From contig NZ_CP078069.1 in NCBI RefSeq assembly GCF_019195435.1, positions 2,170,001 to 2,234,000 on the forward strand: a DNA stretch of 64,000 bases, read 5' to 3'. Each line of letters opens with the position of its first letter. The first letter of the stretch is position 1. A program made the translations under genes and the position numbers. Under the pieces are notes generated by a model. That model was not told the DNA's origin. It made no database searches and saw only the letters and a program-made list of their open reading frames with translations. Positions 3,408 to 27,293 of this stretch are shown piece by piece. The DNA comes from Comamonas sp. NLF-1-9 (GTDB lineage: Bacteria; Pseudomonadota; Gammaproteobacteria; Burkholderiales; Burkholderiaceae_C).

Positions 3408-3480
3408 GGGCGGGACACCAGGCCATGGTTCAAGCGGCATGTCGCGCGCGGATCCCCAGCCCCGCAGGAAACGAGAGACC

Positions 3481-5004
3481 ATGAAAACCTATCTTCTCGC
3501 GCTCGACCAGGGAACTTCCAGTTCACGCAGCATCCTGTTTGACCGTGACGGCCATATCGTGGCCATCGCGCAGCAGGAGCTGCCGCAGATCTATCCACTC
3601 CCCGGCTGGGTCGAGCACGACCCGATGCAGATCTGGCACACCCAGCTGGCCACGGCGCGCGAGGTGCTGGCACGCGCAGGGGTGAGTGCGGCGCAGCTGG
3701 CAGCCATAGGCATCACCAACCAGCGCGAGACCACGGTCGTCTGGGATCGGCGCAGCGGAGAGCCGGTACACCATGCCATCGTCTGGCAAGACCGGCGCGC
3801 CGAAGCCACCTGCGCGCGCCTGCGCGAGGCGGGTTTGTCGCAACATGTACGCGAACGCACCGGGCTGATCATCGACGCGTACTTTTCCGCTACCAAGCTG
3901 CACTGGATACTGCAACACGTGCCAGGCGCACGCGAGCGCGCCGAGCGGGGCGAACTGGCGTTTGGCACGGTAGACAGCTGGCTGATCTGGCAGCTCACCG
4001 GGGGCCACGAGGCCAGCACGCGCGCCGGCGCCCGCCACGTGACCGACGTGAGCAACGCCGCGCGCACCATGCTGTTTGACGTGCACGCCAACCGCTGGGA
4101 CGAGAAACTGCTGGCGGCGCTGAAGATTCCGCCAGCCATGCTGCCCCAGGTGCTGCCCTCCAGCGGCGAATTCGGCCACACCAGCGCCGACCTGCTGGGC
4201 GCGCCGGTGCTGATCGGCGGCGCGGCGGGCGACCAGCAGGCGGCGCTGTTCGGCCAGGCCTGCTTTTCTGCCGGCATGGCCAAGAACACCTATGGCACGG
4301 GCTGCTTCATGCTGATGCACACCGGGCAGAGCTTCCAGACCTCGGCCAACGGCCTGATCACCACCGCAGCGGCGCAGCCCGGCGCGCAGGTGCAGTACGC
4401 GCTGGAGGGCAGCGTCTTCGTCGGCGGCGCAGTGGTGCAGTGGCTGCGCGACGGGCTGCACGCGATCAAGGCGAGCAGCGAAGTGCAGCAGTTGGCCGAA
4501 AGCGTGCCCGACTCGGGCGGCGTGGTCTTCGTGCCCGCCTTCACCGGCCTGGGCGCGCCCTACTGGACGCCGGACGCGCGCGGCAGCATCACGGGACTGA
4601 CGCGCGGCAGCACCATTGCGCACATTGCGCGCGCGGCGCTCGAATCGATTGCCTACCAGAGCGCGGCGCTGCTGGCTGCCATGGGGCGCGACGCCGTGGC
4701 CGCTGGCGGCCAGCCGGTGCGCGAGCTGCGCGTGGACGGCGGCGCCTGCGTGAACGATTTGCTGATGCAATTCCAGACCGATTTGCTCGGCATTCCCGTG
4801 GTGCGCCCGCAGTGCGTGGAAACCACCGCGCTGGGCGCGGCCTATCTGGCGGGCCTGGCCGCAGGGGTGTATGCCAGCCTGGAAGAGCTCTCGGCGCAGT
4901 GGCGGGTGCAGCGGCGCTTCACCCCGCAGATGCCGCCCGAGCGCGCGGCCGAGCTGATGGCACGCTGGGAGCATGCGGTAGCGCAGACCCGGCTGACGCA
5001 ATAA
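3481..5004 (+). CDS. glpK: Glycerol kinase
   Basis: This cytoplasmic FGGY-family kinase makes sn-glycerol-3-phosphate from glycerol and ATP. It has 507 residues, close to E. coli GlpK (502). The N-terminal phosphate-binding DQGTSSSRS is at 9-17, and the FGGY signature region [15 protein letters not shown] is in the middle. The start ATG at 3481 follows a purine-rich GGAAACGAGAGA; an upstream extension to 3358 overlaps glpR and is not used. It sits directly behind glpR and probably shares its transcript. No glpD follows, so the dehydrogenase must be elsewhere. The TAA stop abuts a degenerate copy of the dispersed repeat. Confidence 0.96.
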
Positions 5005-10991: not shown

Positions 10992-11045
10992 CCAAACAGG
11001 CTACCATGGCCGCCATCCATTGCAGCCGATTCTGCCGCCCGGGGC

Positions 11046-12311
11046 ATGCTCAAGCGCATACACGTCCGCCATCTTGCCGCAGGCATGTATATCCACGAGT
11101 TTTGTGGCTCGTGGATGGAGCACCCGTTCTGGCGCACGCGCTTTCTGCTCAGGAACGCGCAAGACATCGCGCGCATCCGGGACAGCTCCATCCAGGAGGT
11201 CTGGATCGATACCGCCAAGGGCCGCGACGTGGCCCAGGCCGCCGAGCCGGTGCTGCCGGACGAGGCTGAGGCCCAGATCCAGAGCGCGCTGGCCGAGCTG
11301 CAGCCCGAGCTGCCCACCACGCCACTGCCCCAGGCCGCGCCGCTGGCCGACCTCTCCCCCACCAGCACCAGCGAGGAGCTGCAGCGTGCGCGCAGCATCT
11401 GCAATCGTGCGCGCGAGCAGGTGCTGTCGATGTTCGAGGAGGCGCGCATGGGCCAGGCGATCAACGCCCAGGGCGCGCAGGCGACGGTAGACGAGCTCGC
11501 CGGGTCGCTCGCGCGCAACCCTGGCGCGCTGATCAGTCTGGCGCGGCTGAAGACGGCCGACGAATACACCTACATGCACTCGGTGTCGGTCTGCGCGCTG
11601 ATGATGGCGCTGGCGCGCCAGCTGCAGCTCGACGAGGCCACGGTGCGCATGGCGGGCCTGGCGGGGCTGATGCACGACGTGGGCAAGGCGCGCATTCCCG
11701 ACGCCATCCTGAACAAGCCGGCGCGCCTGAGCGAAGAGGAGTTCGACATCATGCGCAGCCACCCGGCCTTCGGCCTGGAAATCCTGCGCGTGAGCAAGAT
11801 GCCGATGCAGGTGCTCGACGCCTGCCTGCACCACCACGAGAAAATGGACGGCAGCGGCTACCCGCACCGCCTGACCGGGCCCGACATCCACCTGCTGGCG
11901 CGCATGAGCGCGGTCTGCGACGTCTACGACGCCATCACCTCCAACCGCCCCTACAAGAACGGCTGGGACCCGTCGGACGCGCTCCGACGCATGGCCGAAT
12001 GGACGCGCGGGCACTTTGACAGCCGCATCTTCCAGGCCTTCGTCAAGTGCATGGGCATCTACCCCACGGGTTCGCTGGTGCGCCTCGCCTCAGGGCATCT
12101 GGCGGTGGTGCAGGAGCAATCCCCGGGCACCCTGCTGGCGCCGCGCGTCAAGGCCTTCTACAGCCTGCACAGGGGCGAGCGCATCGCGCCGCAGCTGATT
12201 GACCTGTCGCGCGCCGGCGCCGAGGACCGGATCGCCGCGCGCGAAGACCCCGCCCGGTGGGGCTTTTCCGATTTGAATACCCTCTGGTCTGGCCTGCCCC
12301 TGCCCCCCTGA
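11046..12311 (+). CDS. HD-GYP domain cyclic-di-GMP phosphodiesterase, paralogue 1
   Basis: This is a 421-residue cytoplasmic protein. An N-terminal DUF3391-like domain (about 1-130, with [13 protein letters not shown]) is followed by an HD-GYP domain (about 165-360). Metal and GYP motifs are present: HD at 210-211 in [12 protein letters not shown] at 263-265, and GYP at 271-273. In the usual HHExxDGxGYPxGL signature the last part is altered here to GYPHRL. These proteins hydrolyse c-di-GMP to pGpG or GMP. There are no membrane segments. A close paralogue follows after 34 bases, so this is a tandem duplication. Confidence 0.9.
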
Positions 12312-12345
12312 ACACCGCGGTGCCCAAGCACCATTTTTTCGCCCA

Positions 12346-13590
12346 ATGCTCAAGCGTATTTCCGTTGATGACCTCGCCCTCGGCATGTTCGTGCACGAGT
12401 TCTGCGGCTCCTGGATGGACCATCCGTTCTGGCGCGCACGCTTTGTGCTGGACAGCGCGCGCGACCTGGAGCGCATCCGCGCCACGCCCATCCGCGAAGT
12501 GATCATCGACACCGCCCGCGGCAAGGACGTGCAGCGCGCGCCCGCCGACACCGCTGGCAGCGCGCCGGCTACCGCCTCCGTCCCCGAGTCCGCCCCCGAG
12601 CCGCCGCCCGAATCCGGCGCAGCGCAGCGCAGCCCCGCCAGCATGCAGGACGAAATGCGCCGCGCCGCGCTGATCTGCAACAAGGCACGCCAGGCGGTGG
12701 TATCCATGTTCAGCGAGGTGCGCCTGGGCAAGGCGCCCGACACCGTGCTGGCCAGCGGCCTGGTGCAGGAGATTTCCGATTCGGTGATGCGCAACCCCGG
12801 CGCGCTGATCAGCCTGGCGCGGCTGAAGACGGCCGACGACTACACCTACATGCATTCGGTCGCGGTGTGCGCGCTGATGGTGGCGCTGGGCCGCCAGCTC
12901 GGCCTGGACGAAGCCCAGCTGCGCACCGCCGGCATGGCCGGCCTGCTGCACGACCTGGGCAAGGCGATGATGGACCAGAGCGTGCTGAACAAGCCGGGCA
13001 AGCTCACCGACGCGGAGTTCGAGCACATCAAGACCCATCCGCACGAAGGCTGGAAGCTGCTGCACCAGGCGGGCAGCGTGGACGCGGCGGTGCTGGACGT
13101 GGTGCGCCACCACCACGAGCGCATGGACGGGCGCGGCTACCCCGACGGCCTCAGCGGCGAGCGCTTTTCACTGCTCGCGCGCATGGGGGCGATTTGCGAC
13201 GTCTACGACGCCATCACCTCCAATCGCCCCTACAAGCGCGGCTGGGACCCGGCCGAATCGATACGCCGCATGGCCGAATGGACCAAGGGGCATCTGGACC
13301 CGGTGGTGTTCCAGGCCTTCGTCAAGAGCCTGGGCATCTACCCGACCGGATCGCTGGTGCGGCTGAACTCGGGCCGCCTGGCGGTGGTGCTGGAGCAATC
13401 GCGCGAGACCCTGGTCGCGCCAGTGGTCAAGGCCTTTTATTCGACCAAGTCCGGGTTGCGCATCACGCCCGAGCTCATCCACTTGGCCGCGCCGGGCTGC
13501 CGCGACGGCATCGCCGGGCGCGAAGAGCCCTCGAAATGGAATTTCCCCGACCTGGACGAACTCTGGACCGAAGCCGAAGTGGCCGCCTGA
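12346..13590 (+). CDS. HD-GYP domain cyclic-di-GMP phosphodiesterase, paralogue 2
   Basis: This 414-residue protein is collinear with the preceding gene, with the same DUF3391 start ([13 protein letters not shown]), a variable Pro/Ala-rich linker near residues 65-100, and an HD-GYP domain. Its GYP motif is canonical ([15 protein letters not shown]), but after HDLGK it reads AMMDQSVL where most members and paralogue 1 have a xxIPxxIL pattern. The two proteins therefore look complementary: each deviates at a different motif. Both end with a similar C-terminal extension after the HD-GYP core (motif SNRPYK onward), ending in NFPDLDELW here. Confidence 0.9.
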
Positions 13591-22261: not shown

Positions 22262-22732
22262 ATGCAACAGCTACCCACCCGATCGTCCATGCGCCGCAGC
22301 CTGCTCGCTTCGGGCCTGCTCGCGGCCAGCGCCACAGCCGTAGCAGCCGCAGCCCAGGACGCCAAGGACGGCCAGGACAAGGTGATCTACCACATCGACG
22401 ACGCCGCCAGCCAGGCCACCAAGGGCCTGCGCAACATCCGCAACCACCTGGACGTGGCGCCGCAGACGCGCATCGTCGTGGTCACGCACGCCGCCGGCGT
22501 GGACTTCCTCATGGAAGCGGCCAAGGACGCGAAAAACCCCGACATCGATTACGCCGCCCTGGTCAGCGCCCTCAAAGGGCGCGGCGTGCGCTTCGAGGTC
22601 TGCGAAATCACGCTGCGCAACCGCAAGCTCAAGAAAGAGCAATTCATCATGGATGCCGACTTCACGCCCTCGGGCGTGGTGCGCATCGCCCAGTTGCAAA
22701 ACCGCGAGCAGTTCGCCTACATCAAGCCCTGA
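22262..22732 (+). CDS. Secreted DsrE-like family protein
   Basis: This is a 156-residue protein with a signal peptide that contains twin arginines (SMRRSLLASG, residues 9-18) and a long Ala-rich h-region to about residue 32, so Tat or Sec export is plausible. The mature part resembles the DsrE/DsrF sulfur-relay fold (alpha/beta with the RGVRFEVCEITLRNR segment and a single Cys there). The catalytic cysteine position of true TusD/DsrE is not certain. AGGAG precedes the ATG. It is divergent from trpE and upstream of the TpsB gene by 122 bases. The function is unknown; sulfur handling in the periplasm is only a guess. Confidence 0.75.
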   Translation: MQQLPTRSSMRRSLLASGLLAASATAVAAAAQDAKDGQDKVIYHIDDAASQATKGLRNIRNHLDVAPQTRIVVVTHAAGVDFLMEAAKDAKNPDIDYAALVSALKGRGVRFEVCEITLRNRKLKKEQFIMDADFTPSGVVRIAQLQNREQFAYIKP

Positions 22733-22795
22733 GCCCGTGACGGGGCGCGGGCGGCAGCAGGAGGGCTGGCCAGCGCCGGTGCGTGAACAGAGCTC

Positions 22796-22824
22796 TTGCC
22801 AAGATGTGACAATTGTCTTAGTCT
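22796..22824 (+). promoter_or_regulatory. Candidate promoter and palindrome ahead of the TpsB gene
   Basis: TTGCCA (22796-22801), a 17-base spacer and TAGTCT (22819-22824) form a modest sigma-70 match. The spacer contains the perfect palindrome GACAATTGTC (22808-22817), which could be a repressor site. The gene starts at 22855. Confidence 0.3.
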
Positions 22825-22854
22825 GTCTCGCACATTCTTGCGAGCACTTGCACC

Positions 22855-24504
22855 ATGGCCAACACCCGCCCGCTTCAGCGCCCGCGAGTCCTGCCGCCCT
22901 TTGGCGCCTTCTCTCCTGCTCGCTCGTGGCGCGTCCTGTGCGCCGCCGGCGCCCTGTGCCTGAGCGCTGCAGCGTGGGCCGCCCAGGCACCCGTGCCAAT
23001 CACCCAATTCGAAGTCGGCGGCAACACTCTGCTGAGCTCAGCCGAGGTTGAGCGCGCGCTGGGCGAGACAGGCGCGGCGATGACCATCGCCGACATGCAG
23101 GCTGCGGCCCAGCGCCTGCAAGATGCTTACGCGCAAGCAGGCCATGGCGCCGTGATCGTGCTGCTGCCCGAACAGACTTTTGACGACGGGCTGCTGCGCC
23201 TGCAAGTGGTCGAAGGGAAAATCAGCCAGATCAGCGTCACCGGGCAATACGGCTTCAGCCGCGAAAACATCCTGCGCAGCCTGCCCGCGCTGAGCCCGGG
23301 CCAGACGCCCCGACTCAAGGACTTGGACCGCGAGTTGTTGCTGGCCAACGCCAACCCGGCCAAGTACACACGCGTGGTGCTGCAGGCCGGCCAGAATCCG
23401 GGCGAAGTGCAGGCGCTTGCCACCGTCGAGGAACGCCCGCTGCCGCCCTGGCGCATGGACCTGGAGAACACCGGCACGCCAGACACCGGCCGCTGGCGCC
23501 TGGCGGCGAGCTACCAGAATCCCAACGTCGCCGACCGCGACATGGTGCTGGGCGTGCGCGCCGTCACCTCGCCGACCGCGCCCTCGCGCGTGGCGGTGCT
23601 GGGCAGCACGCTGCGCCTGCCGCTGTACGCGGCGCACACCGCAATCGAAGCCGCACTGCTCGCCTCCAACACCAAATCGAGCACCAACACCACCCCCGCA
23701 GGTGACTTGCGCTTTGCCGGTGACGGCCTGTCGGCGGGCGCGCGCGCGATCTGGCTGCTGCCGTTCGTGAGCGATGCCAAATCGCAGCTTTCGCTCGGCC
23801 TGGACATACGCCGCTACCGCACGCAGTGCACCCTCGGCGATCTGGGCGAGGCCGGCTGTGGTGCGGCGCGCAACAACACGCAGCACGCGCTGCCGCTGAC
23901 ACTGGGCTACACGCTGTACCGGCCCGATGCCTACCTCCTGAACCTGCAATGGGTGCGCAACCTCGCCTGGGGCAGCGCCGGACGCGACAGCGATTACGAG
24001 GCCAACCGCGCGGGCGCTACCAGCCACTACCAATTGCTGCGCGTCAACGCGCAGCTGCTGGGGCAGCTCTCGCGCCAGTGGCGGCTGAAGTGGCGCCTGG
24101 ACGGCCAGATTGCGCCACGCGCGCTGGTTGCTGCCGAGCAGATCGGCGTGACCGGCAGCCAGACCGTGCGCGGCTACCAGGAGCGCGAGCTGATCGGCGA
24201 CTCTGGCCTGTCGACCACGCTGGAGCTGAGCAGCCGCCTCGATACGCTGGTTGGCCAGCCGGTCTCGGACGCCTGGCCCACGCTCTCGCTCTTCGTGGAC
24301 GCGGGGCAGGTCTCCAACCGCCTGGGCACGCCTTGCCGCCCGGGGCATTCGCGTTGCAGCGTCTGGTCGGCGGGCCTGGGCGCCGCGTGGAACGGGGAAA
24401 ACCGTTTCTTCGTGCGCATCGAAGCGGCCCGCGCGGGCACGCGGCTGCAATTCACCGATCGCGGTGACTGGAAGCTGCACCTGGCCCTCTCCGCCCTGTT
24501 CTGA
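22855..24504 (+). CDS. Two-partner secretion outer-membrane transporter (TpsB/ShlB family)
   Basis: This is a 549-residue Omp85-superfamily porin. The signal peptide ends near residue 43 (AWA/AQ), two POTRA-like domains follow (about 50-118 and 120-195), then a 16-strand-type barrel. The VRGY motif of loop L6 is present (TVRGYQERELIGD, about 437-449), and the chain ends in Phe, as outer-membrane barrels do. TpsB proteins export large TpsA exoproteins. No TpsA is encoded here; the only co-directional downstream gene, 48 bases away, is a caspase-like secreted protein. The partner is either that protein or encoded elsewhere. Confidence 0.88.
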   Translation: MANTRPLQRPRVLPPFGAFSPARSWRVLCAAGALCLSAAAWAAQAPVPITQFEVGGNTLLSSAEVERALGETGAAMTIADMQAAAQRLQDAYAQAGHGAVIVLLPEQTFDDGLLRLQVVEGKISQISVTGQYGFSRENILRSLPALSPGQTPRLKDLDRELLLANANPAKYTRVVLQAGQNPGEVQALATVEERPLPPWRMDLENTGTPDTGRWRLAASYQNPNVADRDMVLGVRAVTSPTAPSRVAVLGSTLRLPLYAAHTAIEAALLASNTKSSTNTTPAGDLRFAGDGLSAGARAIWLLPFVSDAKSQLSLGLDIRRYRTQCTLGDLGEAGCGAARNNTQHALPLTLGYTLYRPDAYLLNLQWVRNLAWGSAGRDSDYEANRAGATSHYQLLRVNAQLLGQLSRQWRLKWRLDGQIAPRALVAAEQIGVTGSQTVRGYQERELIGDSGLSTTLELSSRLDTLVGQPVSDAWPTLSLFVDAGQVSNRLGTPCRPGHSRCSVWSAGLGAAWNGENRFFVRIEAARAGTRLQFTDRGDWKLHLALSALF

Positions 24505-24552
24505 CCAGCGCGCACCCAGGCCTTCACCGCACATCCGCCGCCGGAGCTCGAC

Positions 24553-26019
24553 ATGATTTCCTTTCTTCCCTCCCGACGCCCGGCCCTGATCGGCGCGCTC
24601 GTTGCTGCGGCGGCGTTGAACCTTGCGCCAGCGGCAGGGATCGCGCAAGTGACCGCCCCCCCGCCGTCGCCTTCACCGAGCCCTTCACCGAGCCCTACGC
24701 CCAGTCCAACGCCCAGTCCAACGCCCAGCCCTACGCCCAGTCCAACGCCGACGCCGCTACCGCCTCCTCTACCACCTCCTCCACCTCCGCCGCCGCCACC
24801 TCCTCCTCCGCCACCGCCTGCTCCCGCGCCGATACCTGCGCCGCCTCCGGCGCCAACGCCGGCACCCGCCCCGCTGCCGCCCCCGCCCCCGCCCCAAAGC
24901 AGCGACATGTGGGGCGACTGGGAGCGCGCGGCTCGCAGCATCGAGGGGCCGCGTGCGCCGCTGGGCTCATCGGCCTACCTGCTCGATGCCGTCCAGCCGG
25001 GCCCGGCCGACGCCACTGGCGCAACGCGTTGGCCCGCACCGGGCTTGCTCACGCCGCAACCGGATGGCAGCCAGTATCTGCGCGTGTTGCCCGTGCGCCA
25101 AATGTCGCGCGACGCGCTGCGCGACGTGCTGCGGGCGCGCGGCGACTACATGGACGGCTTGCTCGCCGGCGCCACCAGCCAGCTCAAGACCAATCCTCGC
25201 CTGGCGGATGCGCCGGGCTGCGACAGCGCCAGCCCCGGCTGCCTGCTGCGGCGCCAGACGCACGCGGTCTCGCCTCTGCGCCCGGCGCGACGCATGGCGC
25301 TCGTCATCGGACTCGATCGCTACCAGGATTTGCGCATTCCGCAACTCGCCAACCCGGTCTCTGACGCGCAGGCCATCGCCCGCACCTTGGGCCAGCAGAT
25401 GGGCTTCGAGGCGCGTGTGCTGCCCAACGCAGGCAAGGCGCAGGTACTGCAAGAGCTCAATCGCCTGATCGAGGAATCGGGGCCGAACGACAGCGTGGCG
25501 CTCTACTTCGCCGGGCACGGCACCGTCGTCAAGGAAACCGGCGAGGGCTACTGGTTGCCCTCGGACGCACGCGCCGACGACCCCTCGGGCTGGCTCTCCA
25601 ATGCCGACATCAACCGCGCACTTTCGGCCATTACCAGCCGACAGATCGCGGTCTTTGCCGACAGCTGCTACGCCGGCACGCTGGCGCAGGGCGACGCGCT
25701 GCTCGCCAGCGCTGGCGCGGATGCACCCCCCGACATCGATCGCATCCAGCGCCTGCGCGCGGTCGTCGTGATGGCCTCCGGTGGCAACGAGCCGGTGGCC
25801 GACGGCGGGCGGGCGGGCCATTCGGTCTTTGCCTGGAGCCTGCTGCGCCAGCTCGACGAGGCGCGCGGCTGGGTAGCGGCCGCGCGCATCTTCGGCGCGG
25901 TGCGCAGCGACGTCGAACGCGAGCTGCCGCAAACGCCGGTGTACGGCGTGGCGCAGGCCGCAGGGCATGAGGAAGGCGCGGACTTTCTGCTGCGGGCCAG
26001 CGGGCCGACAGGCCACTGA
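24553..26019 (+). CDS. Secreted caspase-like (peptidase C14) protein with Pro-rich stalk
   Basis: This is a 488-residue protein. An N-terminal signal peptide (about 1-31) is followed by an S/T-P repeat (about 38-70) and a run of 16 prolines plus P/A-rich sequence to about 115. A spacer of about 130 residues follows, with two Cys near 222 and 229. The C-terminal caspase fold (about 247-480) begins RMALVIGLDRYQDLRIPQL. The catalytic dyad is intact: His about 322 in YFAGHGT and Cys about 372 in FADSCYAG. The stalk suggests an envelope-spanning or surface protein. It is probably co-transcribed with the TpsB gene. The substrate is unknown, and no TPS secretion domain is visible. Confidence 0.85.
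   Translation: MISFLPSRRPALIGALVAAAALNLAPAAGIAQVTAPPPSPSPSPSPSPTPSPTPSPTPSPTPSPTPTPLPPPLPPPPPPPPPPPPPPPPAPAPIPAPPPAPTPAPAPLPPPPPPQSSDMWGDWERAARSIEGPRAPLGSSAYLLDAVQPGPADATGATRWPAPGLLTPQPDGSQYLRVLPVRQMSRDALRDVLRARGDYMDGLLAGATSQLKTNPRLADAPGCDSASPGCLLRRQTHAVSPLRPARRMALVIGLDRYQDLRIPQLANPVSDAQAIARTLGQQMGFEARVLPNAGKAQVLQELNRLIEESGPNDSVALYFAGHGTVVKETGEGYWLPSDARADDPSGWLSNADINRALSAITSRQIAVFADSCYAGTLAQGDALLASAGADAPPDIDRIQRLRAVVVMASGGNEPVADGGRAGHSVFAWSLLRQLDEARGWVAAARIFGAVRSDVERELPQTPVYGVAQAAGHEEGADFLLRASGPTGH
24658..24900 (+). repeat. Tandem S/T-P and poly-proline coding repeat
   Basis: This is a low-complexity DNA tract within the caspase-like gene. A 12-base unit close to ACGCCCAGTCCA recurs several times between about 24695 and 24750, then a CCN run encodes 16 consecutive prolines. 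Units are multiples of three, so slippage would change stalk length without shifting frame. Confidence 0.85.
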
Positions 26020-26114
26020 GGTCGGCCAGGCGCCTCAGGGATGTCCGGCACGGCCCGGGCGAGCCTGTGGCAGCGCCAAGCGAGATGGGCCGCAAAGACT
26101 GATGCAGGAAATCC

Positions 26115-26852
26115 TCAGCCCACGCCCATCTCTGCAAAGCTGTCCATGTAGCCATCCGCATCCACCTCGCGCACCGGCTGCCCGTGGTTGTAGCCCCAGG
26201 TGACGAGGACGACGGGGCAGCCCGCAGCCCGCGCCGCCTGGGCGTCGTTGCGCGAATCACCGACCATCAGGGTGCGCGCGGGCACGGTGCCCAGCCACGC
26301 ACAGGCCTGGAGCAGCGGCAGCGGATCGGGCTTCTTGCGCGCGAAGCTGTCGCCGCCGAAGACAGTCTCGAAAGCGCCGTCCAGCCCCTTGGCGCGCAGC
26401 AGCGCCAGGGCGTGCGCGTGCGGCTTGTTGGTCAGGCAGACCAGGCGCAAGCCGGCGCGGCGCAGGCCCGCCAGGCCCTCTTGCACGCCCGGATAGAGCA
26501 CTGCGTGGCTGCCGTTGACAAGGCCGTAGTGGTGCTGATAGCGTAAATGCGCCCGGGTGTAGAGCGCCTGGGCGCGCGCTGCGGCGTCGGCGTGCCCGGC
26601 GCGGGTGCAGGCCCAGAGCAAGACCGATTGCAACAAATGTTCCGAGCCCTTTCCCACGCGCAGCGCGATTTCCTCGCGTGGCATGGCGGGCAGGTCCAGT
26701 TCGGCCAGCGTGCGAGCCAGGGCCAGGGCGAAGTCGCCCAGCGTGTCGACCAGGGTGCCGTCCAGGTCGAGCAGCACCGCGTCCACCTGCGCCAGCCACG
26801 GCCCGCGCGCGAAGGACGCGGCATCGGCCGGGCCGGTTACATCCATTGACAT
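26115..26852 (-). CDS. gph: Phosphoglycolate phosphatase
   Basis: This is a HAD-superfamily hydrolase of 245 residues that removes phosphate from 2-phosphoglycolate formed by DNA repair or oxygenation reactions. Motif I DLDGTLVDT carries the nucleophile Asp, the motif III Lys is in ARKKPDPLPL, and motif IV is GDSRNDAQAARAAG. The start is taken at the ATG at 26852; 26846 and 26891 are alternatives. In many proteobacteria gph sits between rpe and trpE; here it is separated from rpe by a small rightward gene and from trpE by three rightward genes. Confidence 0.92.
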   Translation of the reverse strand: MSMDVTGPADAASFARGPWLAQVDAVLLDLDGTLVDTLGDFALALARTLAELDLPAMPREEIALRVGKGSEHLLQSVLLWACTRAGHADAAARAQALYTRAHLRYQHHYGLVNGSHAVLYPGVQEGLAGLRRAGLRLVCLTNKPHAHALALLRAKGLDGAFETVFGGDSFARKKPDPLPLLQACAWLGTVPARTLMVGDSRNDAQAARAAGCPVVLVTWGYNHGQPVREVDADGYMDSFAEMGVG

Positions 26853-26936
26853 GCTGCGGCACCCCGATTGCCGGCGAGGCATCCAATGCATTCACTGAGC
26901 CGGAGCTTGTTCCGGCGCACTACAAGGAGTTTGAAT

Positions 26937-27293
26937 ATGCGCAATTTTCGTCTTTCGGTTTTTCTCGGTAGCGCCTTGCTGGTATTTGGCGTGCATGCAC
27001 AGGCCGCAAGCCCCAGCGCTGCCGAGCAGTGCGCGGGCGTGGCCCCGGCGAGCCGCGCCGCCTGCATCCGCGAAGTGGGCGCCGCCGCCCAGGCAGCGCG
27101 CAATGGCCAATTGAGCAGCGCAGACGCCGCCACCTACGAGCGCAACGCCATGGCGCGCTGCCAGGTGTTCAAGACCGAGCAGGATCGCAGGGATTGCGAA
27201 AAGCGCATGGGGCCTGCCGCGGAGCTCAGCGGCTCGGTCCAGGGCGGCGGTATTCTGCGCGAGGAAACCACCACCTACACCATCACGAAGTAA
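26937..27293 (+). CDS. Small secreted protein of unknown function
   Basis: This is a 118-residue protein with a clear Sec signal peptide (about 1-23, ending HAQAA). AAGGAG lies 8 bases before the ATG at 26937, which fixes the start. The mature part has four cysteines in two pairs (C-x10-C and C-x11-C), compatible with two disulfides in the periplasm, and many charged residues. I do not recognise a characterised family. It is divergent from gph, and its last 11 bases overlap the 3' end of the convergent rpe gene. Confidence 0.75.

Follow-up and report, generated by a model that had tools for sequence, protein, structure and literature searches.

The DNA analysed here is a stretch of 64,000 nucleotides (the window) from Comamonas sp. 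NLF-1-9 (contig NZ_CP078069.1, positions 2,170,001 to 2,234,000). It carries two adjacent plus-strand genes, tpsB and a gene for a caspase-fold protease, in a block flanked by trpE and gph, both of which lie on the minus strand. The first gene (22855..24504, 549 aa) encodes a TpsB transporter of the ShlB/FhaC type, with a signal peptide, two POTRA domains, a beta-barrel and the VRGY motif. The second (24553..26019, 488 aa) encodes a short secreted caspase-fold protease (Peptidase_C14, PF00656, 1.8e-21) that comes from the C-terminal part of a TpsA, the exported partner in two-partner secretion (TPS). The initial annotation had placed the two genes rightward, 48 bases apart, between gph and trpE, and these coordinates hold. 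Across the whole genome (G000; one contig, 3.03 Mb, completeness 100), the one ShlB match is this TpsB and the one Peptidase_C14 match is this caspase.

The same short form, a TpsB beside a caspase, is found in two further Comamonas genomes, both metagenome-assembled genomes (MAGs): Comamonas sp. SCN 65-56 (G002) and SCN 67-35 (G004). Comamonas flocculans (G008) carries a full-length form.

The transporter

The window TpsB combines POTRA domains with a ShlB barrel carrying VRGY, the build that defines ShlB/FhaC/HecB transporters. Two POTRA domains and VRGY had been read from the sequence at the outset. VRGY is present, and Pfam recovers one POTRA_2 stretch (aa 48-121, 1.2e-13) along with ShlB (1.1e-18); the second POTRA domain is seen only in the AlphaFold2 model (pLDDT 87.7). 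The best PDB matches of that model are CdiB and FhaC.

Conservation was judged on 44 alignment columns with an invariance of 95% or more across 54 TpsBs found beside fused TPS-caspase genes (described below). All three short-form TpsBs keep 44/44 of these columns; when the fused TpsBs are left out one at a time, they keep a median of 98% and a minimum of 84%. Among the three short forms, the ratio of nonsynonymous to synonymous substitution rates (dN/dS, NG86), taken as a rough sign of constraint, is 0.26-0.33 for TpsB (0.18-0.27 in the barrel, 0.24-0.44 in the POTRA domains) and 0.18-0.30 for the caspase part. The proteins diverge by 13-28%, and both genes are open in each genome. Faster change of POTRA2 in the short forms was looked for and not seen. 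Judged by sequence comparison, TpsB has apparently been kept in working form in the short-form genomes.

The caspase

The initial description of a secreted caspase fold with an intact His/Cys dyad on a proline stalk is borne out. The protein opens with a signal-peptide-like start (24553..24645, about aa 1-31, judged by eye), followed by a Pro-rich stalk (24652..24906, aa 34-118) in which 53 of 85 residues are Pro. A linker (24907..25287, aa 119-245), conserved in alignments and helical in the model, then leads to the C14 domain (25288..25941, aa 246-463). The first 16 residues are identical in SCN 65-56, and the junction between signal peptide and stalk is in frame in all three short forms. 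The protein-database entry (P0001) starts at aa 119 and so omits both signal peptide and stalk. This position is disfavoured as the true start, because a signal-peptide-like start and a Pro-rich stalk precede it in all three species.

The catalytic dyad consists of His322 (25516..25518) and Cys372, the latter within Asp370-Ser371-Cys372 (25660..25668), where Asp370 forms the acidic S1 residue of a D-x-C motif. A second predicted acidic S1-pocket residue, Asp271 (25363..25365), lies in helix 1. All four residues are kept in 112/112 family rows that reach 250 bits or more (this threshold removed 8 of 120 rows, and some genes were fetched twice). In these rows the caspase is also the last domain, with 2-22 residues beyond the profile match. 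Caspase fold and His/Cys dyad place the window protein in Peptidase C14. The PDB matches of the model include MALT1, metacaspases and caspases, separated by no more than about two Z units, which gives no ground for naming a subfamily. In the metacaspase TbMCA2 the S1 pocket contains Asp95 and Asp211, and in MALT1 Asp365 and Asp462 (PMC4357240). With Asp271 and Asp370 equated to these positions on the basis of motifs, the acidic pocket predicts cleavage after Arg/Lys.

Caspase-tailed TpsA relatives

In a first search, which covered 100 relatives, the closest caspase matches were in three congeners (83%, 70% and 57%). Four of the more distant matches (G019, G059, G074, G075) lay in open frames of 1,357-2,152 residues, in which a TPS domain lies close to the N-terminus and the caspase at the C-terminal end; the G059 frame was counted as 1,721 residues in this search and as 1,357 in later readings.

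The C. flocculans locus has the same order as the window, trpE-DsrE-TpsB-X-gph-small gene-rpe, with TpsB directly upstream of X. Here X is a protein of 1,304 residues that matches both the TPS domain (1.2e-25) and Peptidase_C14 (4.1e-18) in one frame and is built of a TPS domain, a passenger, a Pro-rich stalk and the caspase. Residues 54-481 of the window caspase align with residues 867-1299 of X at 55%. In the window the stalk directly follows the signal peptide; in the full-length relative the TPS domain and passenger lie between them, so that about 830 residues are absent from the window protein. The passenger of X has no Pfam match, those of two other family members contain YDG and MBG repeats, and a beta-helix passenger would be expected from the TPS family.

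A scan of a genome collection (84,980 species) returned 288 pattern matches, of which 220 were relatives, and the best 80 of these relatives were kept; the collection may omit records near the window's genome, and C. flocculans is outside it. The hosts of these 80 are mostly Betaproteobacteria. Forty-nine loci are fused with a TpsB in the stretch, one is fused but has no TpsB there, 19 are 5'-cut, nine are solo caspases, and two, both Comamonas, have a TpsB but no TPS domain. TPS domain and caspase therefore share one frame in 50 of the 61 loci that are not 5'-cut. In 48 of the 49 fused loci with a TpsB, the TpsB gene lies upstream on the same strand. Caspase and TpsB genes are thus neighbours in relatives too, and the adjacency on which the initial annotation had staked its reading is upheld. 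The single exception is L148, where TpsB is downstream of the fused gene; in L124 it is 2.7 kb upstream. Both are MAGs labelled Bordetella parapertussis with divergent fused genes, and the labels look doubtful.

Within the window's family, 32 of 399 genomes have a match, at 40 places (E <= 1e-45). Twenty are fused, one is fused without a TpsB in the stretch, five are cut, two have TPS part and caspase in separate frames, four have a TpsB without a TPS domain (G000, G002, G004 and G350) and eight are solo. These eight solo caspases score much lower (168-218 bits) and branch apart. In the two loci with separate frames (L204 in G341 and L206 in G406), the frames are adjacent and represent either separate genes or a frameshift. 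Another locus, L096, is labelled solo yet groups with Nitrosomonas fused genes, so the label may reflect a short stretch. Over 54 fused loci, TpsB and caspase distances are correlated (r 0.89, reached by 0/999 label shuffles), which indicates that the pair travels together.

A toxin-immunity pair was also considered for these loci; no downstream gene common to all 70 stretches, which include some genes fetched twice, was found. One downstream cluster occurs in 19/70 stretches (its L087 member, 11111-12359, is OmpA-like) and another in 7/70 (its L078 member, 11040-13227, has a CHASE2 match just under the cut-off), hinting that the fused genes belong to envelope operons.

Search for a TPS-domain partner

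By Pfam, the window caspase contains no TPS domain. The TPS profile PF05860 has 0 matches in the whole one-contig genome and none in SCN 65-56 or SCN 67-35; the same search is positive in 7 of 16 genomes, including the congeners G003 and C. flocculans. A second profile, built from the TPS domains of the caspase-tailed family, gives noise in the window's genome (E 0.11) against 2.8e-108 in C. flocculans, and nothing beyond noise over the window itself (best E 0.09). This profile misses the PF05860-positive TPS protein of G003 and is therefore narrow, so the general absence rests on PF05860. In G003, which lacks the cassette, contig C200 (L053, L063) carries a separate TpsB of ordinary appearance and, after it, a frame of 2,243 residues with a TPS domain.

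The window TpsB is thus a TpsB by build whose TPS-domain partner, present in the C. flocculans relative, is missing. A distant TpsA in the same genome was considered and is rejected on the PF05860 result and the noise-level family profile. The initial annotation had likewise seen no TpsA substrate and had named a linked TpsA elsewhere as the finding that would count against its reading; PF05860 detects none in the genome. Its suggestion that the caspase processes a distant TpsA has no support, since PF05860 finds no TPS-domain protein in any of the three short-form genomes. A conserved TpsB with no TPS-domain protein by PF05860 must either act on a different substrate or have fallen out of use only recently. 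The adjoining, co-inherited caspase would be the obvious candidate for its substrate.

Origin of the short form

In a caspase tree of 104 rows, the three short Comamonas forms make up one clade (100/99) whose sister is the fused gene of C. flocculans (100/99), and this group is nested among fused and 5'-cut genes. A TpsB tree of 59 rows likewise recovers the short-form clade (100/100) and its pairing with C. flocculans (100/99). Given this nesting among fused genes, the short form is derived, and the trees show that the clade formed by the window and the two Comamonas MAGs lost the TPS domain and passenger. The window caspase descends from a TpsA and is no longer one, its TPS secretion domain being gone. 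The anatomy and ancestry of the pair are firm. The earlier suggestion that the caspase is the cargo of TpsB gains support from descent, the caspase having been the C-terminal domain of a TPS-domain protein beside a TpsB with which it is co-inherited; export without a TPS domain lies outside that support.

A short TpsB/caspase pair also occurs on contig C73 of G350 (L210, 3953-13449). The TpsB there is a distant one, scoring 157 bits against the family profile, and the gene immediately downstream encodes a caspase of the window's family, 396 residues long and without a TPS domain. Four further caspase-fold genes with secreted-looking starts surround the pair, bringing the total to five. PF05860 has no match in G350, an absence that is less firm because the genome is 96% complete and in about 200 contigs; G037, which has the same genus code, has 6 matches. 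If a TpsB can be re-specialised for a cargo without a TPS domain (see below), this pair hints that such a change happened more than once.

Exchange and loss at the trpE-gph site

The genus sample comprised nine genomes, in eight of which trpE was found at the set threshold (not in G007). The cassette is present at the site in four of them, in short form in the window's genome and the two MAGs and in full form in C. flocculans, and is absent from G001, G003, G005 and G006. In G005, the TrpE sister of SCN 65-56 (100/98), the spacer between the DsrE gene and the small gene (L185, about 3428-3626) holds a remnant in two pieces that resemble the TpsB region of SCN 65-56, one of 118 bp (86%) and one of 85 bp (85%), and the cassette was therefore lost there. 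The pair had initially been described as inserted. This captures only part of its history, as one of the four cassette-less sites is a decayed remnant.

The window's genome and C. flocculans are TrpE sisters (97%, 100/100), yet their TpsBs are only 61% and their caspases 58% identical. TrpE, Rpe, DsrE, the small protein and Gph are all five closer between these two genomes than between the window's genome and SCN 65-56. By blastn, flanking DNA shared with C. flocculans is 89.5% similar up to 22736, just past the stop codon of the DsrE gene, and similarity resumes at 86% from 26148, at the 3' end of gph, delimiting the differing cassette (22736..26148). Synonymous divergence (dS) between the two genomes is 0.60-0.78 in tpsB and the caspase gene against 0.19-0.33 in trpE, DsrE and rpe, and on these values vertical descent of both cassettes from a common ancestor is rejected. 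Different cassettes in sister species mean that the site has been exchanged; most simply, recombination in the flanking DNA replaced one allele by another while the site itself stayed fixed. The attempt to date the cassette from dS was abandoned, since the GC content at third codon positions (GC3, 0.86) suggests that dS is near saturation.

How the pair may work

The pair probably represents two-partner secretion with a TpsA shortened to its C-terminal domain, in which TpsB still serves the caspase and may export it without a TPS domain. The parent was a caspase-tailed TpsA, built of a signal peptide, a TPS domain, a large passenger, a linker or stalk and a C14 protease at its C-terminal end, and encoded beside its own TpsB. 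Comparison shows that an ancestor of the short form lost the region between signal peptide and Pro-rich stalk, leaving signal peptide, stalk and caspase. The stripped protein would cross the inner membrane by Sec and meet TpsB in the periplasm, where the extended stalk, in place of a TPS domain, may let TpsB export the caspase or hold it at the outer membrane. There it may serve as a protease of the envelope or the extracellular space, with cleavage after Arg/Lys if the acidic S1 residues are read correctly. More tentatively, and at somewhat worse than even chances, TpsB may have become re-specialised, the stalk replacing the TPS domain in engaging the transporter, to give a minimal two-partner system for a surface caspase.

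Several points weigh against this reading. POTRA domains recognise a cargo by its TPS domain (PMC5422565), and a caspase with a signal peptide only could stay in the periplasm. POTRA1 of the window TpsB is 64% identical to both other short forms, against 76-87% for the barrel, and its POTRA1-barrel gap to SCN 65-56 (0.23) is just above the maximum of 0.21 among 15 fused pairs of like divergence. The lower POTRA1 identity could reflect loosened or changed recognition. The dN/dS values are rough, as dS between genes this rich in GC may be close to saturation, and are a sign of constraint rather than exact values. In addition, with cassettes only 58-61% identical in the TrpE sisters, the deletion did not occur on the branch between the window's species and C. 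flocculans, and the history of the cassette at the level of the genus is not simple.

The most serious alternative, although an unlikely one, is that the caspase is a periplasmic protease with a Sec signal only and that TpsB has a different task, either as a pore or in the export of a cargo that is encoded elsewhere and has escaped recognition. Neither a TpsB nor a TPS domain lies in the fetched stretch of nine named members of the wider family (for four of them the stretch has only about 3 kb of upstream DNA). Eight of these nine form a group with L041, whose start resembles that of a secreted protein; the group stands outside the main fused clade (96/85), and its link to the fused L148 is weak (85/49). 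Such secreted caspases can therefore occur with no TpsB linked to them. In the short-form genomes, however, TpsB and caspase are adjoining and constrained in 3/3 cases, and PF05860 finds no TPS protein in any of them.

It is less probable still that the system is decaying, with a broken TpsA and with TpsB and the caspase tail as leftovers. In favour of this are the remnant in the close relative G005 and the lack of a cassette at the site in three further congeners. Against this, both genes are open, the catalytic residues and the 44 TpsB columns are intact, dN/dS is 0.18-0.33 despite 13-28% divergence, and the signal peptide-stalk junction is in frame in all three short forms. That the short form is ancestral and the fused gene arose by joining a TPS passenger to it is very improbable: there are solo caspases, the majority of the named ones lying near the base of the fused clade under midpoint rooting, but the Comamonas short forms sit inside the fused genes, their clade and its pairing with C. 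flocculans are supported in both trees, and deriving short from fused needs only one loss.

Neighbouring features

Upstream of tpsB lies the gene for a DsrE-like secreted protein (22262..22732, plus strand; PF02635, 7.9e-14). The initial annotation had its position right and had associated it with the pair. DsrE is found at three of the four congeneric sites without the cassette, which makes it a resident neighbour outside the unit, and its membership is rejected. Between gph and rpe, a gene (26931-27293) encodes a small secreted-looking protein of 120 aa without a Pfam match; it is found in the eight genus members with trpE, the window's included, at 52-80% identity to the window's copy. A promoter scan returned no promoter-like site, and a terminator scan returned four weak terminator-like sites, all on the minus strand, against 2.5 expected by chance. 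No plasmid-borne close relative was matched at the 'near' setting, and a search with PF13505 added nothing.

Relation to known systems and implications

The closest comparisons are the type Vb systems FhaB/FhaC and CdiA/CdiB. Their transporters have the same POTRA domains, barrel and VRGY, and the full-length relatives share with them the TPS domain and large passenger; the cargo candidate in the window lacks both. LepB is the partner of LepA. The LepA/LepB system of Pseudomonas aeruginosa likewise exports a protease by two-partner secretion (PMC5422565), but here the enzyme belongs to the caspase-fold (C14) cysteine proteases and sits at the very C-terminal end, and the TPS part is absent in the window. 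Polymorphic toxins similarly carry caspase-like domains as the C-terminal-most domain of large secreted proteins (PMC3482391), but in the caspase-tailed family no gene, such as one for immunity, was found to be common to all 70 downstream stretches. In the part of that survey available (Zhang 2012), caspase toxins are assigned to the type II, VI and VII secretion systems (T2SS, T6SS, T7SS), PVC and TcdB/TcaC, and the row for the type V system (T5SS) has only HINT as a protease. The window caspase also differs from bacterial orthocaspases or metacaspases and from MALT1 in having a signal peptide and Pro-rich stalk and in being tied by descent to a TpsA and a TpsB.

Within the collection covered by a full-text search, no recognised description of a caspase-tailed TpsA or of a TpsB without a TpsA was found; literature beyond that collection was not covered. 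The available main text of Asplund-Samuelsson et al. 2012 (PMC3501461) contains none of the terms 'hemag', 'haemag', 'tps' or 'ydg'. The accessible text of the TPS review (PMC5422565) places LepA under proteases and does not contain 'caspase'. A Janthinobacterium genome paper (PMC8929069), in the portion available, names caspase-family and ShlB proteins among many genes, unlinked.

How the stripped caspase would leave the cell is the point of most interest. By rule, the TPS domain is the ticket for export, and three species keep a conserved TpsB without any TPS-domain protein found in the genome. A conserved TpsB beside a caspase descended from the tail of its former cargo would point either to export without this ticket or to a TpsB function beyond the export of TpsA. 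The full-length relatives, in turn, are widespread and predicted to be secreted, each with a caspase-like protease at the C-terminus, and such caspase-tailed TpsAs may provide a tangible starting point for studying the extracellular roles of bacterial caspases.

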